Shown here: positions 15,151 through 56,808 of the stretch, one piece after another
Layout: each line of letters starts with the position of its first letter
Position numbering within the stretch: the stretch's first letter is position 1
Assembly (NCBI GenBank): GCA_964017235.1
Contig: OZ024931.1
Span: forward strand, 103,558,221-103,622,220
DNA: 64,000 nucleotides
From: Sabellastarte sp. h YS-2021
Taxonomy: Eukaryota; Annelida; Polychaeta; Sabellida; Sabellidae
Direction of reading: 5' to 3'
Notes under the pieces: generated by a model
Database searches by the model: none
Told to the model about the DNA's origin: nothing
What the model saw: only the letters and a program-made list of their open reading frames with translations
Program-made: the position numbers and the translations under genes

Positions 15151-16236
15151 ATACACAATGTGTGTATGAAAACTAACATACTGTACCCTTTTTGAATAGT
15201 TAACAGGTGCAGCAATGTTCAGCAAACATGTATATTTGTGTATCACCATTTTATTGTGAGTCAATAATTTTATATCATCTTCTGTTTTAATTGCCAAATC
15301 CCAGAAATTGGTAAGATTGTCCAGTTATATCTTGGAGAAATTATTTCTACTATTTTTTTCTGTTTTTATCTCAGATTTGACCAACTCTGGCTTTAACTTT
15401 TGAGTTGAAATGCACGATCTTTCGTTGGAAATGCTTCTTTTACTTTCAAATTAAAATGTATTAACATCAAAATTGCATATCTGTGTCTTAAATAATGCTT
15501 ACAATATCTTATTTTGTTTTAGTATTAGGCTCCACACTAACTTCACAAAATTCCATAATTTCTTCTTCTGTTCCCTTTTGCAACAATGTATTGTCCCTTT
15601 TGTAAAGCCAACTATATTGATAAATTCATGCATCATCACTTACTCATCACTGTAAAAGAAACACTGTAAAAGGAAAGTTTTTAGATTTCGTATTCAGTTT
15701 TCATATTCTTGTAGTCATTTTAAGGAGCAAGAGTTATTCTCAACAGTTTCCTTATTAATCTAAAATGGAGATTATCCCTTAAAAAGAATTTATACCATGA
15801 ACAACAGATGAGAAGTATTTGAAGGACTCGGTCGATGAAATAATTTTCTAAATTTACAGTTGCAGAAACTGTCATGTCGCTACACCATAAAATATGAGGG
15901 TATAAGTTTTTGGTGTTTAATTTAAGGTCCTGTTCTACATAATGTTTTTACATAAGTCTTCTGAATTACTAGTAAGCTCAAAAATAATCTTGTGGTCTTT
16001 ATTTTGCATTTTCTTGCTTTCTTGTGAAAATATATACACACCCAGATTATGCTAATTGTACTCACATTTTGTATCTGGTATGATTATATATGCACTCTGT
16101 ACACTGTAAGCAAAAATAAATAAAATATAAAAAGGTAGTGTATCTTTGTTGTAATGGTGTAAATACATTCGGCTGGATGGAAACCGACGCATTGGTGTAA
16201 TGAGATTAAAGTCCCATGTAAGATTGCTTGTTGTGG
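15151..16236 (+). other. Probable 3' untranslated and downstream region of the TNF gene
   Basis: AT-rich sequence without reading frames. The clearest polyadenylation signal is AATAAA at 16115-16120, which would give a 3' untranslated region of roughly 1 kb. DIRS element 1 begins about 120 bp after that signal. Transcript limits cannot be proven from sequence alone. Confidence 0.4.
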
Positions 16237-16421
16237 CAGTTGCCTGTGGGTGCTGAGTTTAAGGCCTGAGTAAGTTTGCTAATCAGAGGTCATGCCTGAA
16301 GGTCAAATGAAGGTCAAGCACAGGAAGTAAAGATGGATGGTAGTTTGGGAATTTTATTTACATGTTAGTTAAAATAGAATACAGGTTTAAAATGTTACTT
16401 TGTAATGTTTTAAAGCCCCAA
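16237..16421 (-). repeat. DIRS element 1, split direct repeat B2
   Basis: Starts CAGTTGCCTGTGGGTGCTGA and ends CCCCAA. It matches B1 at 17320-17504 base for base as far as I can read. Its outer edge is the right end of the element in transcription sense; host DNA (TTGCTTGTTGTGG) precedes the CAG on the + strand. Confidence 0.95.
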
Positions 16422-16559
16422 CATGGGGAACATGACCATAAATGGTTAAAACTACCAATGGTACAAAAAAAAGAAATTTAAAATGACTCGCATTTGTATG
16501 TAACAGCAAGTGGTTGAGTTTGTCCATGTCTGGTCCAGTAAGCAGTGTGTCAATTCAGT

Positions 16560-17095
16560 AGGGGGATACCCGGGTCAGCCGGGTCCAGCCTTGATCATTG
16601 GATCTATGTAAGAGTGCAAACTACCGCCGAAAGTACCCAGTAGTTGAGATGAGCCACATCAATCCGAAGAGACCTCCCTCCAGGTGGGTAATCCCTGGAG
16701 GGGTCAAGCTCACCCAGAAGTCGAAATTAAGAGAACCTAAGACAGTTCGAGAGGGGGTTGCCCGGGTCAGCCGGGTCCTGCCTGAGTCTGATTTGATCAG
16801 TTGCCCCACCAGGGGGTTCGAAAGTACCCAATGGTTGAGGTGAGCCACATCAATCCGAAGAGACCTCCCTCCAGGTGGGTAAGTCCTGAAGGGGTCAAGC
16901 TCACCCAGAATCGAAATTAGGAATACCTAAGACAGTTTGAGAGGGGGGTGCCCGGGTCAGCCGGGTCCTGCCTGAGATCCATGTAATCAGTCACCAAAGG
17001 GGGGGAACTACCCCTGTCTAGAATGAGCTATGTGAGTCCTAGAAGACTTCCCTACAGGTGGGTTAATGCTGCAAGGGTCGCACTCATGACTCAAT
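16560..17095. repeat. Internal tandem repeat between B2 and A2, about 192-bp units
   Basis: Three clear units carry CCCGGGTCAGCCGGGTCC (near 16569, 16760 and 16952), with CCTCCCTCCAGGTGGGTAA and GGGGTCAAGCTCACCCAGAA between them. A fourth diverged unit follows near 17010-17090. It is GC-richer than its surroundings. It lies within the terminal region of the element rather than in the coding body. Confidence 0.85.
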
Positions 17096-17117
17096 ATGGT
17101 TAGAGGAGGGTGGTGGG

Positions 17118-17322
17118 TGAAATTTGCATGTTAACACAATGGCTGCCAATTCAAATATGACCCTTGGTTGGATACAAAGCCAAATAAGGCACTGGCCTGA
17201 TTTCTTATTGGATGACCAGAGGTCAAGAGTTCATTAGAGGCTATAAGCATACAATTAGTTATAAGGTTAAGGTAGGAGTCAACTGTCAGAGCAGGCCCCT
17301 TACATGGCCGTGCTGAATACAG
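17118..17322 (-). repeat. DIRS element 1, split direct repeat A2
   Basis: Runs from TGAAATTTGCATGTTAACAC to GCTGAATACAG. It matches A1 at 22591-22795 with one visible difference (ACAATTAG against ACAAGTAG). It overlaps B1 by the three bases CAG. Confidence 0.95.
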
Positions 17323-17504
17323 TTGCCTGTGGGTGCTGAGTTTAAGGCCTGAGTAAGTTTGCTAATCAGAGGTCATGCCTGAAGGTCAAATGAAGGTCAA
17401 GCACAGGAAGTAAAGATGGATGGTAGTTTGGGAATTTTATTTACATGTTAGTTAAAATAGAATACAGGTTTAAAATGTTACTTTGTAATGTTTTAAAGCC
17501 CCAA
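17320..17504 (-). repeat. DIRS element 1, split direct repeat B1
   Basis: A second copy of the B repeat, starting at the CAG shared with A2 and ending six bases short of the recombinase stop codon (17511-17513). The A2-CAG-B1 junction is exactly what joining the two outer ends of the element would produce. Confidence 0.95.
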
Positions 17505-17510
17505 GCCCAA

Positions 17511-18490
17511 TTAGAAGGAGGCAGGGATGAGCTTGGCGAATGTGGTAGGTATGATTGAGGGTGCCTGAGATGCATTCTCCAGATAAGTCCAAATGGCAGA
17601 GCTGCGCCATAGTCCGTGTGCCATAATGTTCTGGATCTTGACGTTGTTATCGAAGGCCAGGGTGGCTCCTGACCTCCTGAAGGTGTGGAACCCATGCCCC
17701 TTTGGAGATATATTCCTGTGGTCCAGTACTTTCTTCAATGCATCTCGAATGTGAGTGTCAATCACCTGGTTATAGGGTTGGAATTTATTAGCAAAGAGGG
17801 GGGCGGTGGGTGGGAGTGGGCGAGAGTTGAGGAGTGTCTTGAGGGCCCTGACTGGGCATAGGAAGTGGTTGGCCAAAGATGGTAATTGGATCCAGTGGTG
17901 GGACTTATGATTTTGTAAGGTCTTGGTCCATTTTATGAGTAAATGGGCACCAGGAGGAGCAAATATGAGGTCTTGCCTAAGGAAATGTGTACAGGGGTCG
18001 AATTTGGAAGAACTGTGAGGGGCAATATTGGACATTCTCAGGAACCCGAAAAATGCAGTGAGGAAAATGGCCCTGAAGAGAGGTGGGTCATGGAGGATGT
18101 CACATGACAAGGATATGTGGTATAAGGTTTGGATGTCAAAGACCCCCCGAGGGGTGGGGGAGAATTTTGAGTTGATGTTTATGCTTCTGATGAATCTATG
18201 GATGGCTGGGTGTGATAAAGAGGAAGTGTCCCAGCTATAAAGGCCCGCTTTTGAGTGGATGGAGGAAAGGTAGGAGGATATGACTTTTGGTGAAATGAGG
18301 TTCTGGTAAAGGTATTCCAGGAAAGTAAGGATATTATGGACAGAGATGGATACGGGAAGGTCCATAAATAGTAAGAAAGTAATGTAAGTTTTGAAGTGAA
18401 GGTGATGAGCTGAGGAAGTTGAAGGTCTGAAGGCCTGAGATATTCTGTGGCAAGCTTGCACCAGGAGTGGAGCAGAAGTGGAGGAAGAAC
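17511..18490 (-). CDS. DIRS element 1 tyrosine recombinase
   Basis: This enzyme would insert the circular element copy by site-specific recombination in place of an integrase. The fold has an N-terminal SAM-like domain (about residues 1-110) and a catalytic domain with Arg in TAFFGFLRMSN, then GHGFHTFRRSGATLAF (H-x-x-R), IMAHGLWRSSAIWTYL (second His and the Tyr nucleophile). All R-H-R-H-Y landmarks are present and the frame is open to TAA at 17511. There is no ATG before the domain; the frame opens only a few codons upstream, past a likely splice acceptor (AATTTCAG, cut at 18490/18491). The frame differs from that of RT-RNase H, which ends at 18497. Expression by splicing is inferred. Confidence 0.92.
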
Positions 18491-18500
18491 CTGAAATTAT
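18491..18500 (-). promoter_or_regulatory. Putative 3' splice acceptor before the recombinase frame (element 1)
   Basis: On the minus strand ATAATTTCAG overlaps the RT-RNase H stop (TAA at 18499-18497). The recombinase frame continues directly after the AG with two bases completing a codon. Element 2 has TTAATTTCAG at the matching place in the same phase. No donor was identified. Confidence 0.5.
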
Positions 18501-19783
18501 ATGGAGATATCCAGATTAAAGAATTGCATGGGTATTTTTCTCCAGATATGGGAGCTTTGTAGGTCTCTAAGGAGGCTTTGGTCAACAGGTTTGTCCGAAT
18601 ATATTCGAGATAATAGGTCAGCTATGTTGTTGGCCTTTCCCCTAATATGGTCAATGGTGACAGTTATATCATAGGTGGCTGATATTAACCAGATGTTTCT
18701 AAGGCATAGTGCCAACATATCATCCCTAGTCCTGCCAGTTTGAACTACTTGAACTACAGCTGAGTTATCACAGTAAAATTTTACTGTTGAATGGGCCCAG
18801 TTACCAGCCCAAAGCTTGAGGGCTATGACCAGATTAAGCATCTCAAGGTGGACAATTGTTAAATCTTTCTGATACACATTGAAGAGGGGGGTAGCATAGA
18901 CTTCCTTGTTCCAGACCCCTCCCAAGCCAGTGAGGGATGCATCAATATGGAGGGTGTGGCCCTGAGGGATGGGATCTTTGTTAATGTAGGTAATCCCCTT
19001 AAACCTGGGTAAGAAGACTAAGAACCAGGTAAGGTCTTTGTGAAAGTCATTTGTTAGGATAATTTTCTTAGCATCTGAATTTTCCCTGAACAAGGCCAAC
19101 ATTCTGTTGATAAACACGCGGGCTGGGGGAACACACTTATGGATGTATAACAGTTTGCCCAAGAGGGACTGAAAGGCCCCTTTGGACAAATGACGCTTAC
19201 TACTGGTTGCTACACATTCAGTATATATACTCTCAAGCTTTTCTGGGTGGATACTGAGTTCGTTTTTATCCAGGTCAATTTGAATGCCCAGGCATGTGAG
19301 CTTGCGACAGGGTGGGGTTTGTTTGTCAAGATTGCTAGGCAATCCAAGTTCAGTGAGAAGTGACGCCAGACGTCGGAAATGGGCGTCACCAGAAGCTTTC
19401 GAGGACACAATGATGTAGTCGTCGATGTATGCAAACATTTTGACTCCAACATTAGCCATGATGAACGTGACGGCGTCGCTGACGCGCTGAAACGCCGCGC
19501 TCCCGTGGACCCAGCCGAACGCCACCACAGCGTCAATGTAGACGTCATTTCCCCATGATATGCCCAATTTTATGGCGTCAGCTGGGTCCACACGGAGATT
19601 GCGAAAAGCTCTGGCCACGTCAATCTTTGCTATGACGGCGTCGTCTTTGTGACTACATATTTCCCTGACAATATCATCTATGGATGGAAACTTAAGGCAA
19701 AACAGGTCACCGTCAAATCTGGATCTATCAACCTGGTCATTCAATGCCAAGCCCTTAGGATAAGACAGATCGAGTATGACACG
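18497..19783 (-). CDS. DIRS element 1 reverse transcriptase - RNase H
   Basis: Copies the element RNA and degrades the template. Downstream of the in-frame TGA (19786-19784) the frame carries VILDLS (RT block), KIDVARAFRNLR with the first catalytic Asp, the FGWVHGSAAFQ block, and FAYIDDYI with the Y-x-D-D active site at about residues 108-111 counted from the ATT/ATG-like start at 19750. RNase H follows: LHIDASLTGLGG (Asp), VHLEMLNL (Glu), CDNSAVV (Asp) and HIRGKANNIADLLSR (His and Asp), so all catalytic acids are present. There is no methyltransferase domain. It is in the same frame as the preceding pre-RT and gag segments, and it ends just before the recombinase frame. Confidence 0.93.
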   Translation of the reverse strand, partial: RVILDLSYPKGLALNDQVDRSRFDGDLFCLKFPSIDDIVREICSHKDDAVIAKIDVARAFRNLRVDPADAIKLGISWGNDVYIDAVVAFGWVHGSAAFQRVSDAVTFIMANVGVKMFAYIDDYIIVSSKASGDAHFRRLASLLTELGLPSNLDKQTPPCRKLTCLGIQIDLDKNELSIHPEKLESIYTECVATSSKRHLSKGAFQSLLGKLLYIHKCVPPARVFINRMLALFRENSDAKKIILTNDFHKDLTWFLVFLPRFKGITYINKDPIPQGHTLHIDASLTGLGGVWNKEVYATPLFNVYQKDLTIVHLEMLNLVIALKLWAGNWAHSTVKFYCDNSAVVQVVQTGRTRDDMLALCLRNIWLISATYDITVTIDHIRGKANNIADLLSRIYSDKPVDQSLLRDLQSSHIWRKIPMQFFNLDISI

Positions 19784-21262
19784 TCACTTGCCTCTGTCCT
19801 TGGGTCTAGTTAGGATTGGTGAGCAATGAATTGAACTGTAATCAGGATGGTGCCCAATTTTGCTAAGAGGACCCAAAATGGCCTCATGTGAACGCTCCTT
19901 AGCCAGATAAGCCCCCACTGCATTCTCAAATTGAAGGGCTGAGTGATGATTTTTTATATTCTGGTTACAGAGAATTCTGGATTGAGTAAGTGACAGAGGG
20001 AAGCCAAACTGCAAGTAATGGATCAGTTTTTGGTCCTTATATTCATGTAAGTATTTGCTCCATGCTTCAATTCTAAGACCCGATTTTAAAGGGAATCTGA
20101 CCTGTTTGTAGTTGGGTAGCCCAGAGTGCCTAATAATTCGAGCCATTTCAAGGTACTGCTCAACAGATTCACACTTTATGGGGGCCCTATCAGGGCCAAT
20201 GAATTCAAAGGGTGTGGACTCTACTGCTATGTAACCCTTGGTTTTTGTAGGATAATTAATGTCCTGACACAGAGGTGAATTAACAATACCTGAACGCCTG
20301 GTGTTGGAGGTGTTGACAATGTTAACAACTTCGCCCCCATTAGTGTCACCTTGGTTAAGTGTCAGATCCTGTAAATTGTCAGTATTGTCAATGTCATTGT
20401 CACAATGGTCAGAAAGTTCGACAATTAACTGGTCCATATAAGCTTCGTATGTCAAGCCATACAAGTGCTGACTAGATAGGTCTCGCCTATAGTTGTCAAA
20501 TACTCTACGAGCCTCTAACAATTCTTGAGGCGTGTGATAACTAATGAAAATTACTGGCTGTATATACAAGTTTAATGAACCCCATACATTAAGATGTGAC
20601 TCAGGGTGAACATCACACTGAAAAACCTGAATATGACCATTGTTCCGTGAAATTTCGAGATAATAAAAGCCACCAGGGCTGCCACATGGGTAGCCATGAA
20701 TGTATGAATACCAGATGTCAGAGTTGTTAATTAGGTTATAGAACCCTGTGTCAAACAATGTGACAGGGTGACATGCTAATTGATAAACACCCTTTGAATT
20801 GGTACTGTCTGTAATTAAAGGGTTGGTAGGGTGGGGCTCCACCTGATGGGCAACATAGTGGTCAGTGTGATGAACATCAGAGAGTGTGGTACCCTGGGGC
20901 TCAGTATTATGACATTTACATTTGACATGTGTGGGAATGTCAGTCAATCTGCCAGTATTACATATACCTATGTCAACACACGAATTATCATAAACACTAT
21001 CACCCTGATAAACACTATGATATTCAGTACCTCTTGTACTCCCCAAGGGGTCAGAGGTCAAATTAATCAAATGTACATTGTTCGACTTGTCAGATGACGT
21101 CACTTCACACATATTGTCAGGTATTATGTCTAAATCTACATTTCTATCAACACATATATCATCAAATATAACATTTGTACAATTATTGTGTCCTTTGGAA
21201 CTACCCCCCACCCCGTCGATGACCTGAGGGGTCACACTGTGTTCAAATAGTTCACTCAACTG
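19784..21262 (-). CDS. DIRS element 1 pol N-terminal (pre-RT) region
   Basis: This stretch of about 490 codons is open from the gag TAG (21265-21263) to a TGA (19786-19784). There is no ATG at its head; the codons after TAG are CAG TTG AGT. The first 300 residues are acidic, Asn/Asp/Thr-rich and unrecognised. The last 150 match element 2 in order: CPNY/LPNY-K/A, FGFPLSL, NHHSALQFENAVGAYLAKE, ILGPL, ending at SPILTRPKD, the first RT block. The TGA falls where element 2 has an Arg codon, so CGA to TGA decay is likely. Otherwise it is a continuous part of a gag-pol frame. Confidence 0.75.
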   Translation of the reverse strand, partial: QLSELFEHSVTPQVIDGVGGSSKGHNNCTNVIFDDICVDRNVDLDIIPDNMCEVTSSDKSNNVHLINLTSDPLGSTRGTEYHSVYQGDSVYDNSCVDIGICNTGRLTDIPTHVKCKCHNTEPQGTTLSDVHHTDHYVAHQVEPHPTNPLITDSTNSKGVYQLACHPVTLFDTGFYNLINNSDIWYSYIHGYPCGSPGGFYYLEISRNNGHIQVFQCDVHPESHLNVWGSLNLYIQPVIFISYHTPQELLEARRVFDNYRRDLSSQHLYGLTYEAYMDQLIVELSDHCDNDIDNTDNLQDLTLNQGDTNGGEVVNIVNTSNTRRSGIVNSPLCQDINYPTKTKGYIAVESTPFEFIGPDRAPIKCESVEQYLEMARIIRHSGLPNYKQVRFPLKSGLRIEAWSKYLHEYKDQKLIHYLQFGFPLSLTQSRILCNQNIKNHHSALQFENAVGAYLAKERSHEAILGPLSKIGHHPDYSSIHCSPILTRPKDRGK

Positions 21263-22516
21263 CTAGTTACTGGCCTGTGGCTGCTTATTTCCTTGTCTGT
21301 GCTTTGCAGTGCATTTAGATTCTGGATGAGGAAAATTTTTACCTTGCTTGCTGCAGTATGTACAGAAATGCGAGTAGCTTCCGTGGTGGTTCTCATGTGT
21401 ACATGAGCCCTCATTAAAAAATTTACATGGTCTTCTGCCTGTTGATGGTTGGTTGGAGACTTGAGTGTGGGCCATGGCTATCTGTGATGAGCTCAACCTG
21501 TTTATGGCCCACTGTGTTGCATCTGCCCAAGATAGGTGGCCCTCCTCCACCTCGTGCATGGAGGAGGCCCAAGCTGTCCTGACTGCCGGCCAGGGCAGGG
21601 ATGTAGCATCCCGCATTGTGAAGATGACCTGTGAGAGAGCCTGCTTGACAAGAACTGGATCCGAGATGCTGTGTATATTGCAAAGTTGACCAGCAACCCA
21701 CTGGGGTAAGGAACGCTCGTCATATATAACCCTCTTTTTACCATTGGAGGAATGGAAGCCCTCATTGGGCCATCTGAGGTGGGGAGGGGCCACTACCGAG
21801 TCGTGTGTGTTATACCTTCCTGATTTTTTGACGGTTGGCTTACCTCTGGCTAGTTCAGATTGCAGGTTGCCCTCATATGATGCCAGAAGGTTGTTGACCG
21901 CCTCAGAGATGCCTGGGTTCCCTCTGAGATTCTGGATGCTTGGGATGACGGCGTCATGGCGATCCGGCAGCTGTCCCGCATTGTCCCGGGTATAGGTCAT
22001 GTGTTCCATCCCCTGGCTAGATTGGTGCTGCCTGGTGGGCTGCCCTTGGCCGTGGTGGGGACCTGCTACTGTGGCTGGCTGAGGATATTGTTGCCTGAAG
22101 TCATGTATATTCATATGGTCCCTCATTTGGTTGCCCATACCAGCCGATTGGGCGGGCTGTTGGGGTGAATTTGGCAGTGAAATCCCCCTGTGGTCGAATG
22201 CATGGGACCTAGGGTTAATGGGGGTGGAGTCTCGGGCTGCCTGTCTCTCCACTTTGTCCATTCTCTTCGATAGGGCATCATTTGATTCTTTAATGTCTTT
22301 AAGTATTGACAAAATGGCTTCGTTATCAGGATGGGAAACTGGCTGTTGTTTTTCTTTAACACAAGCAGTACTTACAGTCTTTTTGCTTTTCTGAACATAT
22401 GAACCATCGAGTTCAGAAGCCACCATCCTCTTTTGTTTTTTCACAGAAGTCCTGGCTCTTGCTGAGGCCGTTACCCTCTTCCTAGCATTTGGTATTTCCT
22501 TTTTAGATGAAGGCAT
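21263..22516 (-). CDS. DIRS element 1 gag-like protein
   Basis: A structural nucleic-acid-binding protein, 417 residues, from ATG at 22514-22516 to TAG at 21263-21265. The N-terminus is very basic (KKEIPNARKRVTASARARTS, KKQKRM), then a coiled-coil-like stretch (AILSILKDIKESNDALSKRM), a Gln/His-rich linker, and a conserved C-terminal half (WPNEGFH, QWVAGQL, AVRTAWASSMHEVEEGHLSW). The end carries a cysteine/histidine zinc-binding module, RPCKFFNEGSC followed by HFCTYC and HPESKC, which element 2 shares (ICKRFNEETC, ACFACF, HPELKC). It lies in the same frame as pol, separated only by the TAG, so readthrough to gag-pol is possible. Confidence 0.85.
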   Translation of the reverse strand: MPSSKKEIPNARKRVTASARARTSVKKQKRMVASELDGSYVQKSKKTVSTACVKEKQQPVSHPDNEAILSILKDIKESNDALSKRMDKVERQAARDSTPINPRSHAFDHRGISLPNSPQQPAQSAGMGNQMRDHMNIHDFRQQYPQPATVAGPHHGQGQPTRQHQSSQGMEHMTYTRDNAGQLPDRHDAVIPSIQNLRGNPGISEAVNNLLASYEGNLQSELARGKPTVKKSGRYNTHDSVVAPPHLRWPNEGFHSSNGKKRVIYDERSLPQWVAGQLCNIHSISDPVLVKQALSQVIFTMRDATSLPWPAVRTAWASSMHEVEEGHLSWADATQWAINRLSSSQIAMAHTQVSNQPSTGRRPCKFFNEGSCTHENHHGSYSHFCTYCSKQGKNFPHPESKCTAKHRQGNKQPQASN

Positions 22517-22590
22517 ATTGTATCCAATACTTTACTTGAGTCTATTTAAAATTTTGTTTGATAAAACACTAAAATTCCTTTTCCAATAAC

Positions 22591-22795
22591 TGAAATTTGC
22601 ATGTTAACACAATGGCTGCCAATTCAAATATGACCCTTGGTTGGATACAAAGCCAAATAAGGCACTGGCCTGATTTCTTATTGGATGACCAGAGGTCAAG
22701 AGTTCATTAGAGGCTATAAGCATACAAGTAGTTATAAGGTTAAGGTAGGAGTCAACTGTCAGAGCAGGCCCCTTACATGGCCGTGCTGAATACAG
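22591..22795 (-). repeat. DIRS element 1, split direct repeat A1 (upstream end)
   Basis: The 5' end of the element in transcription sense, and the other copy of A2. Its outer edge is GCTGAATACAG followed by host CCACCATATA. Promoter activity would be expected at or near here, but no core promoter motif is obvious. Confidence 0.93.
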
Positions 22796-22984
22796 CCACC
22801 ATATATTTTTACTCAATTGAAAGATTTCAAATTAAAGTTGAACCACTTTACCCAGCTCACTGATTTAAGAAAGTTTGCCAGTTGTAGTAAAATGTTCACT
22901 AGTTGAATTTCCTTTGAAAAGTTAAATTGCTATATAAACTTCAATTATTCTGGCCTGGCATGCTGTATACTTAGACTGCCAAAT

Positions 22985-23935
22985 TTCAATATTATTATTT
23001 GTAATGCCTACATGCCAAAAAGTATGTGTCCAGTCTTGATTCTATCAGTGAACTAAATAGAACTTACTATGATGTGTCAAGCATTATTAGCCGGTTTCCA
23101 AACCATCACATTGTAGTTAGAGGAGGTTTTAATACCAGTTTCCAGAGACCAGGTCATGCATTAAATCAGTTACATTCTTACATGGAAAGAATGGACCTCC
23201 AGTGTATTATTTTGTAGCTCCAATAACATCAAATTTAAATCTAAATAAATCATTGCGTGATGGAGACAATCTCTCTGATCATAACACAATGTACATCCAG
23301 CTAAATGTTTGAAGTAAAGCACATAGAGTGCCAAGCGGTACAATTACAAAATACTGGGAAAAGCTTCATCACATGAGATAGACCAGTATAAACTGATGTT
23401 AGGGGTTTTACTCAATGATATCAGTATTCCGATTAGTATACTCCAGTGAAACACTATTTCTTGTCAAAACAATGATCATTTTCAAGATATTGAGGTTTTC
23501 TATCAACACATGGTGGCTTCTTGTGTGAAGGATTGTAGTCAGTGTATTTCAAAGATGCAAAACAAACATTCAGCCGAAGACCAGTTAGTGGTTGGTCAAA
23601 ATCTGATGAACCTTTCAAACACAAAAGCATTTTTTGGAACTCCATTTGGCTAGAAAATGGTACTCCTACAACTGGATCCCTACATGCATCAACTATTGCA
23701 CAATTTCACGGTGTAATTAGACATGTCCAAAAGGTGAATGATCAAAGAATTTCTAATAGTCTAGCTACAAAAGTGCTGAACAGTAGATCAACTGAGATTT
23801 GGAGCATGACAGACATATTAAAGGTACATGTATATCTTTGCCAAATACAAATCATAATCATATTACAGGCAACAATAATATCAGTGAGTTACTTGTGTCT
23901 AAATACAACATATTTTATTGTGCTACAATAACTTA
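22985..23935 (+). pseudogene. LINE endonuclease and linker relic
   Basis: A non-LTR retrotransposon open frame in pieces. The first piece has an apurinic-endonuclease pattern: IIICNAYMPK, then YYDVSSIISRFPNHHIVV, RGGFNTSF (the usual GDFN has lost its Asp), and further on LSDHNTMYI (SDH box). The region between 23542 and 23830 matches the segment between endonuclease and RT (SIFWNSIWLENGTPTTG), then a tail NNNISELLVSKYNIFY near 23870. The reverse transcriptase is absent. Several stops and frame changes separate the pieces, so it is inactive. Confidence 0.7.
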
Positions 23936-52077: not shown

Positions 52078-53091
52078 TCAGACGTAGGGGTTGCAGTAGG
52101 AAGTTAGTGGAGAATGTTTTGAAAAGTCCGGGCAACTGAGCTGGCAGCCTGTGGGGGTCTTGATGAGGTATTTCCATATGGCATCGGATTTCCAGCCTCC
52201 ATGAGTTTTTATGTAGTTGAGGTCGATGTTGTGATCAAAGGCCCAACAGGCCCCGGATCGACGAAATGAGTGGTATCCGAACTCGCTAGGTTGAAGACCC
52301 AACTTTAATACGGCCTGTCTGAGCACTAATCTCACTTTGGTTGCTGTGAGGACTTGGGAGGAGTCCTGGTTGGTAACTGTGAAGAGTGGAAGGTCCCTGT
52401 GGGCCTGTCGCTTCGAAACAATGTCCTTCAGTGCGGAGACTGGGCAAATTAATTTGTCCTGTAGTACTGGCAACTGGACCACCTGGGAGTGGCCTGACGT
52501 CTGCATATTCTTTGCACATTTTGTGATCACATGAGCCCCAGGGGCTCCCCATATGACATCTCCATGGGTGGGATACCTGAAGGTGGAATAAGCAGCCTTG
52601 GAGGGGGGGGGGACGAGAGAGGACAGGCGGTAGAAACCGAAAAATCCCATCAGCATCACAGCTTTGTACGTGCTCGCTTTCGGGATGCCCCTTATTGCTT
52701 TAGTCAACTGTCGTAGTTTGTCCACTGTAAAGATACCTTTGACCCGAAATGATAAAGGAGCGTTGTGTGCTACAGAGCGGATTGCTAACTTTATAAGTCT
52801 GTTTTCTAGGGCACTGTCGTTCATCTTGTATATCAAGAAGAAGTGTTTTAACACTGTCATGTAGTTGTTGAGTGTTTGGGCTCGAAGCCCTTGTTGGGCT
52901 AAGTACTCCACGAATAGTGAGACAGCAGAGAACGAGTCTACTGGGCCTGGGTTTACACACACCATGAATGCCAGATAAAGCCTGAACTTGTTTGTGTATG
53001 CTTGAAGGATTCTTGGTCTGAAGGCTGTCGCGACCCTGTGGTTGAAGCCGACTAACAGAGCTGCCACAGGAGTGGGATCTGAAATTAAATA
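52078..53091 (-). CDS. DIRS element 2 tyrosine recombinase
   Basis: Homologous to the element 1 recombinase throughout: ALLVGFNHRVATAFRP at the start, the catalytic Arg in LMGFFGFYRLSSL, FGYHSFRRSGACWAF (H-x-x-R), IKTHGGWKSDAIWKYL (His and Tyr). The domain is open to TGA at 52078-52080 and looks intact. No ATG leads the domain; the first candidate initiator is GTG. Upstream is a pyrimidine tract and TTTAATTTCAG (AG at 53093-53092), again leaving two bases to complete a codon, as in element 1. Confidence 0.92.
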   Translation of the reverse strand, partial: YLISDPTPVAALLVGFNHRVATAFRPRILQAYTNKFRLYLAFMVCVNPGPVDSFSAVSLFVEYLAQQGLRAQTLNNYMTVLKHFFLIYKMNDSALENRLIKLAIRSVAHNAPLSFRVKGIFTVDKLRQLTKAIRGIPKASTYKAVMLMGFFGFYRLSSLVPPPSKAAYSTFRYPTHGDVIWGAPGAHVITKCAKNMQTSGHSQVVQLPVLQDKLICPVSALKDIVSKRQAHRDLPLFTVTNQDSSQVLTATKVRLVLRQAVLKLGLQPSEFGYHSFRRSGACWAFDHNIDLNYIKTHGGWKSDAIWKYLIKTPTGCQLSCPDFSKHSPLTSYCNPYV

Positions 53092-53226
53092 GAAAAATCT
53101 GGTTGGAGATCATTGGTATTTACTGTATGCCAGGTACAACCTTAAATACTGTATCACAGGGGACTGGGTATGCTTCATGCTGGGCCATCTCGAGAGAGTA
53201 TCCGCGTATACATTATCTTTGCCCCC
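52953..53226. repeat. 274-bp tandem duplication, first copy
   Basis: Identical, as far as I can read, to 53227-53500. It spans the end of RNase H, the intergenic acceptor and the start of the recombinase frame. Both copies begin TTACACACACCATGAATGCC. Confidence 0.95.
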
Positions 53227-53500
53227 TTACACACACCATGAATGCCAGATAAAGCCTGAACTTGTTTGTGTATGCTTGAAGGATTCTTGGTCTGAAGGCT
53301 GTCGCGACCCTGTGGTTGAAGCCGACTAACAGAGCTGCCACAGGAGTGGGATCTGAAATTAAATAGAAAAATCTGGTTGGAGATCATTGGTATTTACTGT
53401 ATGCCAGGTACAACCTTAAATACTGTATCACAGGGGACTGGGTATGCTTCATGCTGGGCCATCTCGAGAGAGTATCCGCGTATACATTATCTTTGCCCCT
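53227..53500. repeat. 274-bp tandem duplication, second copy
   Basis: Second copy of 52953-53226. It holds the intact end of RT-RNase H (53384) and a truncated, useless start of the recombinase. The frame of about 70 codons within it is an artefact of the duplication. Confidence 0.95.
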
Positions 53501-54250
53501 TATGTGGGAAACTGAGACTAGAATATTATACTGAGCTTTGATTAGCCATAATGTACGGGTACAGGCAGCGAGAAAAGGATCTCTGCTGCTGCCACTGTTA
53601 ATAACACTGACCACGGCTGCGTTGTCGCAATGAACATCCACTCTGTTGTTCACCCAATCGTGAGCCCACAAACGGAATGCCACCATGACGTTCAGCATCT
53701 CGAAGTGGACTATGGACAGCCTCATTTTATAACACAAGGGAAGGTCCTGGTAGTAGACGTGCGCGTTCGTGTGGCCTCCTATGCCAGAAAGGCACGCATC
53801 GACATGCAGGTGGATCGGGCTTGAAGTTTTGTTGTGTATCTTGGTTATGCCATTGAATGCAACCATGAACTTCCTAAACCAGTTGATGTCCTTATGGAAT
53901 TCTTCAGTCAAGCGGATCCTGCCCTTGGTTGGAGCGTTTCTCAAGGTTTGTAATATCCTATTCACGAACAGACACGCAGGTTGTACGCACTTGTTGATGT
54001 AGATGAGATGACCCACAAGCTTCTGAAGAGACTTCCTCGTCGCGTAGGTCCTGCTGGACCAGTCCTCACACAGCTGTCGTACTTCGCCGATTTTTTGCTC
54101 AGGGATTGTGAGTGTTCCTGTTGTTACATTAATGTTGATTCCCAGGCAGGTGAGACTGTGAACTGGCTGTGACACCTTGTCCTGGTTAATGGGGAGACCC
54201 AGGGATGTGATCAAATTACTTAGTGATAAAAAGGCACTGTGAGCACTGCT
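53384..54250 (-). pseudogene. DIRS element 2 RT (C-terminal part) and RNase H
   Basis: Continues the RT after the frameshift with SLGLPINQDKVSQPVHSLTC (RT block after the Y-x-D-D), LVGHLIYINKCVQPACLFVN (thumb), and an RNase H domain: HVDACLSGIGG (Asp), VHFEMLNVMVAF (Glu), CDNAAVV (Asp) and HIRGKDNVYADTLSR (His and Asp). All catalytic acids are kept. It is cut off from the N-terminal RT part by one extra base in a G8 run (54251-54258). The C-terminus lies in the duplicated 274 bp. Confidence 0.88.
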
Positions 54251-55712
54251 GGGGGGGGCTCACTCCCACTATATCATCCAGATAGGCACATGTCCAATGT
54301 CCGGATTCTTTCATAAGGTGGAAGATGCTATATGTGACCATCTGGCATGCCGAGGCCCCCGTCTTTAGGCCAAAAGGCACGCTGATGTCCACGTACTGCC
54401 TGCCCTGCCAGCTTAGGCCTAGCACCGAAAAATCCCGGGGGTCTGACCTTAAATTTCTGTAGGCCCGCTTGAGGTCGACTTTATAGATGAGAGCGTTCTT
54501 GCCAATCCTGGAGATGGCCTCCACTATAGTGTCCAGTGTGGGGTACTTCAATTTGCAATCAACGTTGTCACACACGTCATCTGGGATTGAGCTGTTAACA
54601 CTAGCCCCTTGAGGCCAGGACAGGTCTACAATAAGTCTCCTGCTCCCGTCTGGCTTTGCCCAAGTCATCATTGGAGAAGTGTGAAGTTTGTCGAAGGGGA
54701 GCTCGTCGAATGGACCTGCAATGGCTTTAAATTGTTTTTCTGTTTGGAGGTATTCGCTGACATGCGTTGGAAAGTTGAGGGCTGACGCATGATTTTCTAT
54801 TTGATTGTTGTACTGGAACACATCATAGTCGAGTGACAAAGGGAACCCGAACTCGATATAATCTGCCACTCTGTTGAATTTGTAGTCTTTCAGAAGCACT
54901 CTCCATTGTCGGGTATTTAATTGTGAAATAACCCTAACTCTGGCTACTGCGTAATTGGGGCAATTATGTTCTTTTGTTTTCTTACAGGCTAATTGGACCC
55001 ATTCTTCCATGCTTGAGTGTTCGATTGAAATGCCACCAATGTTAGCCAGTGCTGGGAGGGGGGCTCTGAATAGCAAGCCCCACTGAGTGTGTAATCCACT
55101 AATAATGTCATGCTTGCCTTCTCTTCTGTCGACCTGCTCGAGGGTTGAATTATTGTAGGTTGCCCCCTCTATTGCTTTAAGGCTATAATTGCCAAAACTA
55201 CCCTTATAAGGGCTGTTTAGCAAACTACCTAAAAATAAGCTAAAATCACTATGGGTGCTGTCCTGGGTTGTCGAGTCCCACTTTGCAGTTTGGCTGTGTG
55301 TACTATTAGTTAAGAAGCTTGTCGATATGTCACCCCCACTCTGGCGTGATGAAGCGACTGTAGAACGTCCCTGGTATAGGTTCTGTGCAATGCTTGAACA
55401 AGTGATGTCACTTTGGTGAGTGGTATTTGACATGCCACTCGAGTCGTAGCTGAGATCTACATACGAATTATGCGAGGAGAAATTGAAATTAAAGTTTTTT
55501 GTTTTTGGTTCACCTGCCCTGTTTGTCGAATCTTTGCTGCACCACTGGCACGTACACTGTCCAATGTGAGCATTGTTAATGAACGCATTCCCAATCAAGC
55601 ACCACTTACATATACATATTCCTAGATGCTTTGCAAACAGGGGCTCGTAGTTACTGACTTGAGGGCAGGCTACCTGGTTCTTAAACTCGCTGTTTTTCCC
55701 CTGATTGACTTG
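54216..55712 (-). pseudogene. DIRS element 2 pre-RT region and N-terminal RT
   Basis: Open upstream of the annotated TTG at 55598 back to a TAG near 55713, overlapping the end of gag by about 30 bases in the +1 frame. The N-terminus has a cysteine cluster (CICKWC, CTCQWC) of unknown role. The middle (GFPLSLDYDVFQYNNQIENH, SALNFPTHVSEYLQTEK) matches element 1. RT blocks follow: SRRLIVDLSWPQGASVN, YKVDLKRAYRNL (Asp), FGLKTGASACQM, CAYLDDIVG (Y-x-D-D). It then runs out of frame at the G8 run. Confidence 0.85.
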
Positions 55713-56346
55713 CTAGTCTTTTTGCCCTGTTGCATTTGAGTTCTGGGTGGCCATAATATCTCTTCACCGCCTTAAAGCAAGCAAAACAAGCGTGTTTATA
55801 GGTGATCTTCCCCTCTACATGATCTTTTGGCTGGCTGCATGTCTCTTCATTAAACCGTTTGCAGATCTTCACCTGCTCCTCCATTTGACCATTTTGCATC
55901 TTAAGTGTACGTTGTGTGAAACGCTGTCGTATCCTGTCTATGGATGCCTGATCTCCCCAGCGAGCATGCCCCCTTTCTATCTCCGTGAGGACAGCAGCGT
56001 GTGCGCGTTTGGCTGTGGGCCAGTTGAGTTCTTGCGCATCTTGCATTATGTGACCTTGATACTCCAACATATACAACCTCGTGTGAGGGTCAGTTTCCTG
56101 TAGGATACAGTGAGCGAAGCCTTGTACCCATTGGTATATGTTTATATCCTCGTAAGTTGGCATTTTAAAGCTCTCGTTGACTGTGCAAAATTCATGGGGC
56201 CAATGAACCATGTGTCTTACCCTCTGGTCGCCTAAGCGGTATCTGCCCGACTTAAACTTATTGGACGTACCTGTCGGTTCCTCTCTGCTGAGATTCTGGT
56301 ATTGTCTAAGTCTTCTGTCGACTTCTGCCTGCACTCGACTGTCGTC
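55681..56346 (-). pseudogene. DIRS element 2 gag, C-terminal part
   Basis: Same frame as the N-terminal gag segment, separated only by TGA (56349-56347). Conserved parts: VHWPHEFCT, YQWVQGFAHCI, NWPTAKRAHAAVLTEIERGH, then the zinc-binding-like module ICKRFNEETC, HACFACF and GHPELKCNRAK, aligned with element 1 gag. Ends TAA at 55683-55681. Confidence 0.8.
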
Positions 56347-56808
56347 TCATAGGTAGTCCATGGAGGGTAGTTCGCCCGAGTTATGTGAGTGACAAGAACG
56401 CCCTGCTGACCTGGATTCCTTTCTTTTGGGGGAGCTGTGCGCAGAGGGTTGGGTAAGGACAGATAGATGGCTGTTACGCCTCTCCTGGCTATCAAGTCGT
56501 TTTTCAATGTCTTCAAACCTGTTCAGGACGATATCCAACTTTTCCATTACCTCCGCCGTGGATGGGTGTTTCTTCTTTGCTAGCTGGCCCACCGTAGTTG
56601 ATTTTGTCGTGACTGCGTTTTCTGAGGCCAATCCTGGGGCTGCATCCACAGAACCTAGATTAATGTGGTTGGTGGATACCGCCGTAGTTGTTTTCCCGGG
56701 TCTGGCCGCTTTCAGTCGCGTACATGAGGTGCCTACTGGGGGTTTATGTCTCTGCTTACACTTAACACAGGCTATCCTGCCCCTGGTGTTGTAACCACTT
56801 GCCGACAT
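56347..56808 (-). pseudogene. DIRS element 2 gag, N-terminal part
   Basis: Begins ATG at 56808-56806 with two CxxC-like pairs in a basic context (RIACVKCKQRHKPPVGTSC), then a Ser/Thr-rich linker and a predicted coiled coil (AEVMEKLDIVLNRFEDIEKR). It ends at TGA where the frame continues (DDSRVQAEVDRRLRQYQ). Probably CGA to TGA decay. With the next segment it would make a gag of about 375 residues, near element 1's 417. Confidence 0.8.

Follow-up and report, generated by a model that had tools for sequence, protein, structure and literature searches.

Retrotransposons of the Ngaro group, in the extracts of the published accounts drawn on here, carry repeats in the order A1-[ORFs]-B1A2B2 around their open reading frames (ORFs) (PMC8547959, PMC3783388, PMC4157794). 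Circle closure and integration of tyrosine recombinase (YR) retrotransposons have largely been a model so far. An element with this repeat order lies at positions 16237-22795 of a 64,000-nucleotide stretch of contig OZ024931.1 from the annelid Sabellastarte sp. (the window). Judged from sequence, it is very probably a young Ngaro-type element, a circle of which would be cut at GAATA|CAG and integrate conservatively through one junction, with one strand favoured. The family is young and offers near-identical copies, uninterrupted sites and derivatives, and crossover, target preference and junction choice can thus be read from its sequences.

Repeat architecture and element ends

Two interleaved direct repeats, A and B, frame the element, whose order in coding orientation is A1 - gag - reverse transcriptase (RT)/RNase H - YR - B1/A2 - spacer - B2. 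The A pair (17118-17322 and 22591-22795) shows one difference in 205 bases and the B pair (16237-16421 and 17320-17504) is identical at 185/185 positions; repeats of this length are not due to chance. The repeats are confirmed as described in the initial annotation, near-identical and with a large spacer of 696 bases, and its proposal of a split-direct-repeat YR retrotransposon is supported. No inverted repeat pairs of at least 30 bases were found in 15500-23500, and an Rfam search of the element, spacer included, gave no match at an expectation value (E) of up to 1. The features are as follows.

16237-22795: whole element; open frames on the minus strand
16237-16421, minus: B2, outer 3'-end repeat (coding orientation), with CAG against host DNA
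16422-17117, minus: spacer, 696 bases, beside 19/19 non-array junctions that border YR
16551-17086: three diverged tandem units of about 190 bases each, inside the spacer
17118-17322, minus: A2, internal A copy, terminating in GAATACAG
17320-17322: CAG common to A2 and B1; putative crossover point directly before it (GAATA|CAG)
17320-17504, minus: B1, internal B copy
17511-18461, minus: ORF3, putative tyrosine recombinase, 316 amino acids (conserved residues; sub-threshold family matches)
18497-19750, minus: ORF2 C-terminal part, RT (YIDD) and RNase H (RVT_1, 1.1e-10; RVT_3, 1.2e-5)
19784-21259, minus: ORF2 N-terminal part, 491 amino acids, with an in-frame stop at 19784-19786
21263-22516, minus: ORF1, gag-like, 417 amino acids, with a Cys/His-rich C-terminal stretch (assigned by position and composition)
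22591-22792, minus: A1, outer 5'-end repeat (coding orientation); the element terminates at GAATA (22792)
22793-22795: CAG, most likely target DNA rather than element (bases vary among copies; CAG in 2/18)

The outer ends read ...TTGTTGTGG|CAGTTGCC at 16237 and ...GCTGAATACAG|CCACC at 22795. Joining them recreates the internal junction, as had been proposed: GAATA followed by CAGTTGCC is the A2/B1 junction.

The genome (1.79 Gb, 647 contigs) was searched for related copies, and 23 elements were examined, comprising the window copy, 20 further copies and 2 shorter derivatives of which the end letters were read. All 19 readable B2 outer ends begin with CAG (CAGTTGCC), the left ends being unreadable in L037 and L042 (truncated B) and in L041 and L050 (no B found). 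On the A1 side, the 18 readable outer ends all terminate in GAATA, or in GGATA in L040, L042 and L050; the right ends were unreadable in L036, L037, L043 and L047 (truncated or missing) and in L041 (its A continues into a further B). The ends that were read all fall at the two positions first located in the window copy.

The CAG word annotated at both ends does not hold. The bases after GAATA are CAG, TTG, CAC, AAG, TTG, TAG, TCC, AAG, AAA, CCA, CAC, AAG, AAT, CAG, AAA, ATT, ATG and GAC, that is, CAG in 2/18 and other bases in 16/18. CAG is a property of the B2 end, and the target supplies the three bases past GAATA, because three insertions have uninterrupted counterparts without CAG to which insertion adds exactly CAG...GAATA. 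Since other copies differ at these three bases, the CAG at 22793-22795 of the window is counted as host. That an original CAG has decayed at the A1 ends was considered and rejected: in the counterparts the corresponding bases are the same or similar and likewise not CAG, and the repeats are otherwise near identical.

Target sites, junction choice and integration

Insertion sites could be compared with uninterrupted sequence for three copies. L031 lies inside a satellite of 169-base units, ten of which stand uninterrupted in the flanks of this copy (at most 2 substitutions in 50 bases) and read TTG after the joint, or TTC in some units. L035 lies inside a dispersed repeat with four uninterrupted copies (two close, two more diverged), contiguous at the joint and continuing with TAG (TAA in one copy). 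L039 lies inside a dispersed repeat with at least 38 matches across the stretch; two uninterrupted copies run without a break across the joint, differ slightly in length only downstream of it, and continue with AAG (TAG in one copy). At all three sites the insertion adds exactly CAG...GAATA, with 0 bases duplicated and 0 lost. The initial annotation had expected CAG to be present once at empty sites; it is missing at all three of these insertions.

These sites bear directly on a DIRS1-style homology mechanism, under which the junction trinucleotide must match the target and CAG would flank the element on both sides and occur a single time at the empty site. Two elements, the window copy and L048, do have CAG at both ends, and the target bases resemble CAG beyond chance: they agree with it at 26/54 positions, where random host positions give a mean of 12.07 and reached 26 in 3 of 50,000 draws. 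The 16/18 A-side ends without CAG and the CAG-less counterparts of the three insertions nevertheless make this mechanism highly improbable, and CAG as a strict target word was rejected on the same grounds. CAG matching is contradicted as a strict rule and remains as a preference. Two of the 18 target trinucleotides are exactly CAG and two share no base with it; further beyond the joint, a pyrimidine occupies position 4 in 16/18 and position 5 in 14/18. Of the proposal that CAG is the crossover, the GAATA|CAG cut on the element thus stands and the identical CAG on the target does not, the target being only loosely CAG-like.

Under conservative integration of a circle, the element RNA would be reverse-transcribed and, if the published model for this order applies, its ends would be joined into a circle via the internal B1/A2 template. 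A putative tyrosine recombinase would cut the closing junction of this presumed circle at GAATA|CAG and exchange it with a target that loosely resembles CAG. The expected product, host-CAG...element...GAATA-host, has no duplicated and no missing bases, which is what the three insertions show. In the intermediate, one of the junctions and one of the strands would be favoured, because only the closing junction appears to be used and the outcome of one strand is always kept.

The preference for one junction is visible in the junction classes. The internal and the closing junction of the circle would be identical, and if either could integrate, half of the copies would be expected to be permuted. 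The 30 distinct junctions classified (32 rows, two junctions being present twice, with a further junction at L041's right end left out) comprise 19 of type spacer|YR, 10 of type gag|YR, which belong to a single array, one spacer|spacer and no gag|spacer. Insertion by way of the internal junction, which would give permuted copies, is seen in none of the 30 and was rejected. For the 19 non-array junctions bordering YR, finding 0 permuted has a chance of about 2 in a million under a 50:50 choice, if the insertions are independent; the left flanks readable for those copies all differ.

The strand preference rests on the elements of which both ends were read and the A side is not CAG: 14/14 share an identical end configuration. 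The outcome kept is that of the window's plus strand, which is the first-strand complementary DNA (cDNA) sense because the frames lie on the minus strand. We infer that the integrating molecule is strand-asymmetric. Integron cassettes integrate by exchange of a single strand, and replication fills in the other. By analogy, we tentatively suggest that only the closing A1/B2 junction may be competent and that only the strand of first-strand-cDNA sense may be exchanged, with the other filled in by replication. A strand-asymmetric circle, if true, would explain the CAG of B2, the host bases kept at A1 and the lack of permuted copies among those seen.

Cleavage by YRs is staggered across the segment between the arms of their sites. 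An ordinary double-strand exchange with such a staggered overlap could have occurred, with host repair restoring the same strand every time. YR sites typically have two arms 6-8 bases apart (PMC3212892), and a repair bias could produce one-sided ends. Random heteroduplex segregation, however, predicts both configurations where 14/14 informative elements show one, and a consistent repair bias would need a strand mark; we regard this explanation as doubtful.

Several points weigh against integration of a circle by the element's own recombinase. The copies were sampled in part: the A2/B1 junction as query yielded 432 candidates and a second search, with spacer matches, yielded 413, with 40 of each scored, and several older, weaker or unclassified spacer matches (e.g. 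C2:66731717-66732616) were left out of the copies read. The uninterrupted counterparts are paralogous repeat units, not alleles, and the flanks of the window copy occur only at the window among the 40 matches listed, so its own empty site was not found there. All derivatives described below are obtainable by homologous recombination without a recombinase. ORF3 itself stays below cut-off (Pfam Phage_integrase, E 0.044; NCBIfam XerA, E 0.03), and a PDB sequence search gave no credible recombinase match. On the other side, R142, K177/K180, H259, R262, H282/W285 and Y293, which we take to be catalytic, are kept in an alignment of two families, ORF3 and a 32%-identical relative, and ORF3 lies on the same strand downstream of RNase H, as expected of a Ngaro YR. 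No relatives of the ORF3 recombinase were confirmed in viral contigs.

Family age, derivatives and coding capacity

As a yardstick for chance, the 16-base A end has 45 exact matches in the 1.79-Gb genome and its reversed sequence, used as control, has 0. These places divide into 28 exact A/B junctions and 17 outer ends, the latter belonging to 12 full copies, 3 ORF-only forms and 2 spacer-only forms. Internal A differs by 0-2/202 bases in all 66 pairs of 12 near-identical elements, the window copy included, and the paired repeats inside one copy show 0 differences in most near-identical copies. By these sequence distances the family is young and recently active, and the youth first proposed for the window copy is upheld by the internal A comparison.

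Shorter and tandem forms accompany the full copies:

C4:166220659-166226131 (5473 bp), C4:142493125-142498600 and C11:37915224-37920695: ORF-only forms, about 5.47 kb
C5:49054369-49055449 and C1:169448881-169449957: spacer-only forms, about 1.08 kb
C8:4742905-4794779: tandem array with ten A/B junctions, a 5.7-kb period and no spacer

The five short forms are known from the coordinates of their matches, and end letters were read for one ORF-only and one spacer-only form. In addition, L038 carries two spacer units that differ at 11/912 positions, and the units of the C8 array show 2-37 differences per about 3,388 bases (19/45 pairs compared).

Later recombination between direct repeats, by the recombinase or by homologous recombination, would yield the ORF-only, spacer-only, double-spacer and tandem forms, and both can explain them. 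That host homologous recombination alone produced these forms, as it does solo long terminal repeats, is on balance somewhat probable. An A x A or B x B exchange predicts every form, the same explanation has been given for isolated AB repeats in Cafeteria Ngaro (PMC8547959, in extract), and the unit differences in the C8 array are as in stepwise unequal exchange. Against it, recombinase exchange at GAATA|CAG predicts the forms equally well, and short forms make up 5/17 exact outer A ends, a high share for so young a family.

In L037 and L043 the YR end breaks off, and beyond the break lie stretches of another family that are 24-42% identical to the element proteins; in L043 this stretch matches gag and the ORF2 N-terminal part only.

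Among the proteins, RVT_1 and RVT_3 both match the ORF2 C-terminal part above the Pfam cut-off, and ORF1 has no family match above it. The 491-residue N-terminal part of ORF2 has no Pfam or NCBIfam match and a best PDB sequence match at E 5.2. This stretch could be an unrecognised domain. It is conserved among four copies, with a DTG-like motif seen by eye (DIG in one copy). None of the four open pieces gave a Dam methyltransferase match at E up to 1, and the RNase H match is followed by only about 36 residues.

The in-frame stop in the RT frame is private to the window copy (1/18 probe-matched copies, itself included), and the individual proteins have open frames in many other copies. The window copy is young, and it is probably disabled because its RT frame has a stop seen in only this one of 18 copies. 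Annotated as complete, it is so in structure; in coding it is not, ORF2 being split by the stop at 19784-19786.

A second YR retrotransposon, diverged and partly broken, lies on the minus strand at 52078-56808, and its YR is 32% identical to that of the first. A search of its surroundings gave no long split direct repeats, and the pair that spans it (50761, 57034) has only 35 bases at 71% identity. A 273-base tandem duplication inside it, at 52953-53499, reported as 100% identical, is either very recent or an assembly matter.

Comparison with known systems

The element fits Ngaro because of its repeat order and the lack of a methyltransferase match. As in published extracts on Ngaro, gag, RT/RNase H and YR lie on one strand, a methyltransferase is absent and isolated repeat derivatives occur. 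It differs in the N-terminal 491 residues of ORF2 without a family match, and may differ in its 696-base A2-B2 spacer with tandem units of about 190 bases. Amphibian Ngaro elements carry an SGNH hydrolase according to an extract of PMC9210276; no such match was found in the window element. The placement is by repeat layout and domains.

To our knowledge, Cryptons are without RT. They share a eukaryotic YR and a proposed circle integration with this family, and differ as transposons with short direct repeats of 4-6 bases at both ends (PMC3212892, in extract). PAT elements share the split direct repeats (PMC4157794, in extract), whereas they have a methyltransferase domain, for which the window element gave no match.

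DIRS1-like elements resemble the window family in a 3-base junction word, a circle model and the absence of target duplication (PMC3266345, in extract). They differ in having inverted terminal repeats and a methyltransferase, neither of which was found in the window element, and in that the published model requires an identical target word (PMC3266345), which most targets of the window family lack. No report of one-sided trinucleotides in Ngaro was found in the literature searched, available in part and mostly excluding subscription journals. By our own count in Table 3 of PMC3266345, whose rows are annotated elements and not copies, of 26 DIRS1-like elements with a 3-base junction, 18 have a match on both sides, 7 have one at the start alone and 1 has one at the end alone. 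One-sidedness may therefore be wider than this Ngaro-type family, the matching side being the 5' start in the DIRS1-like table versus the 3' (B2) end here. The one-sided junction and the lack of permuted copies among those read are constraints that a simple circle model with an identical word does not predict.

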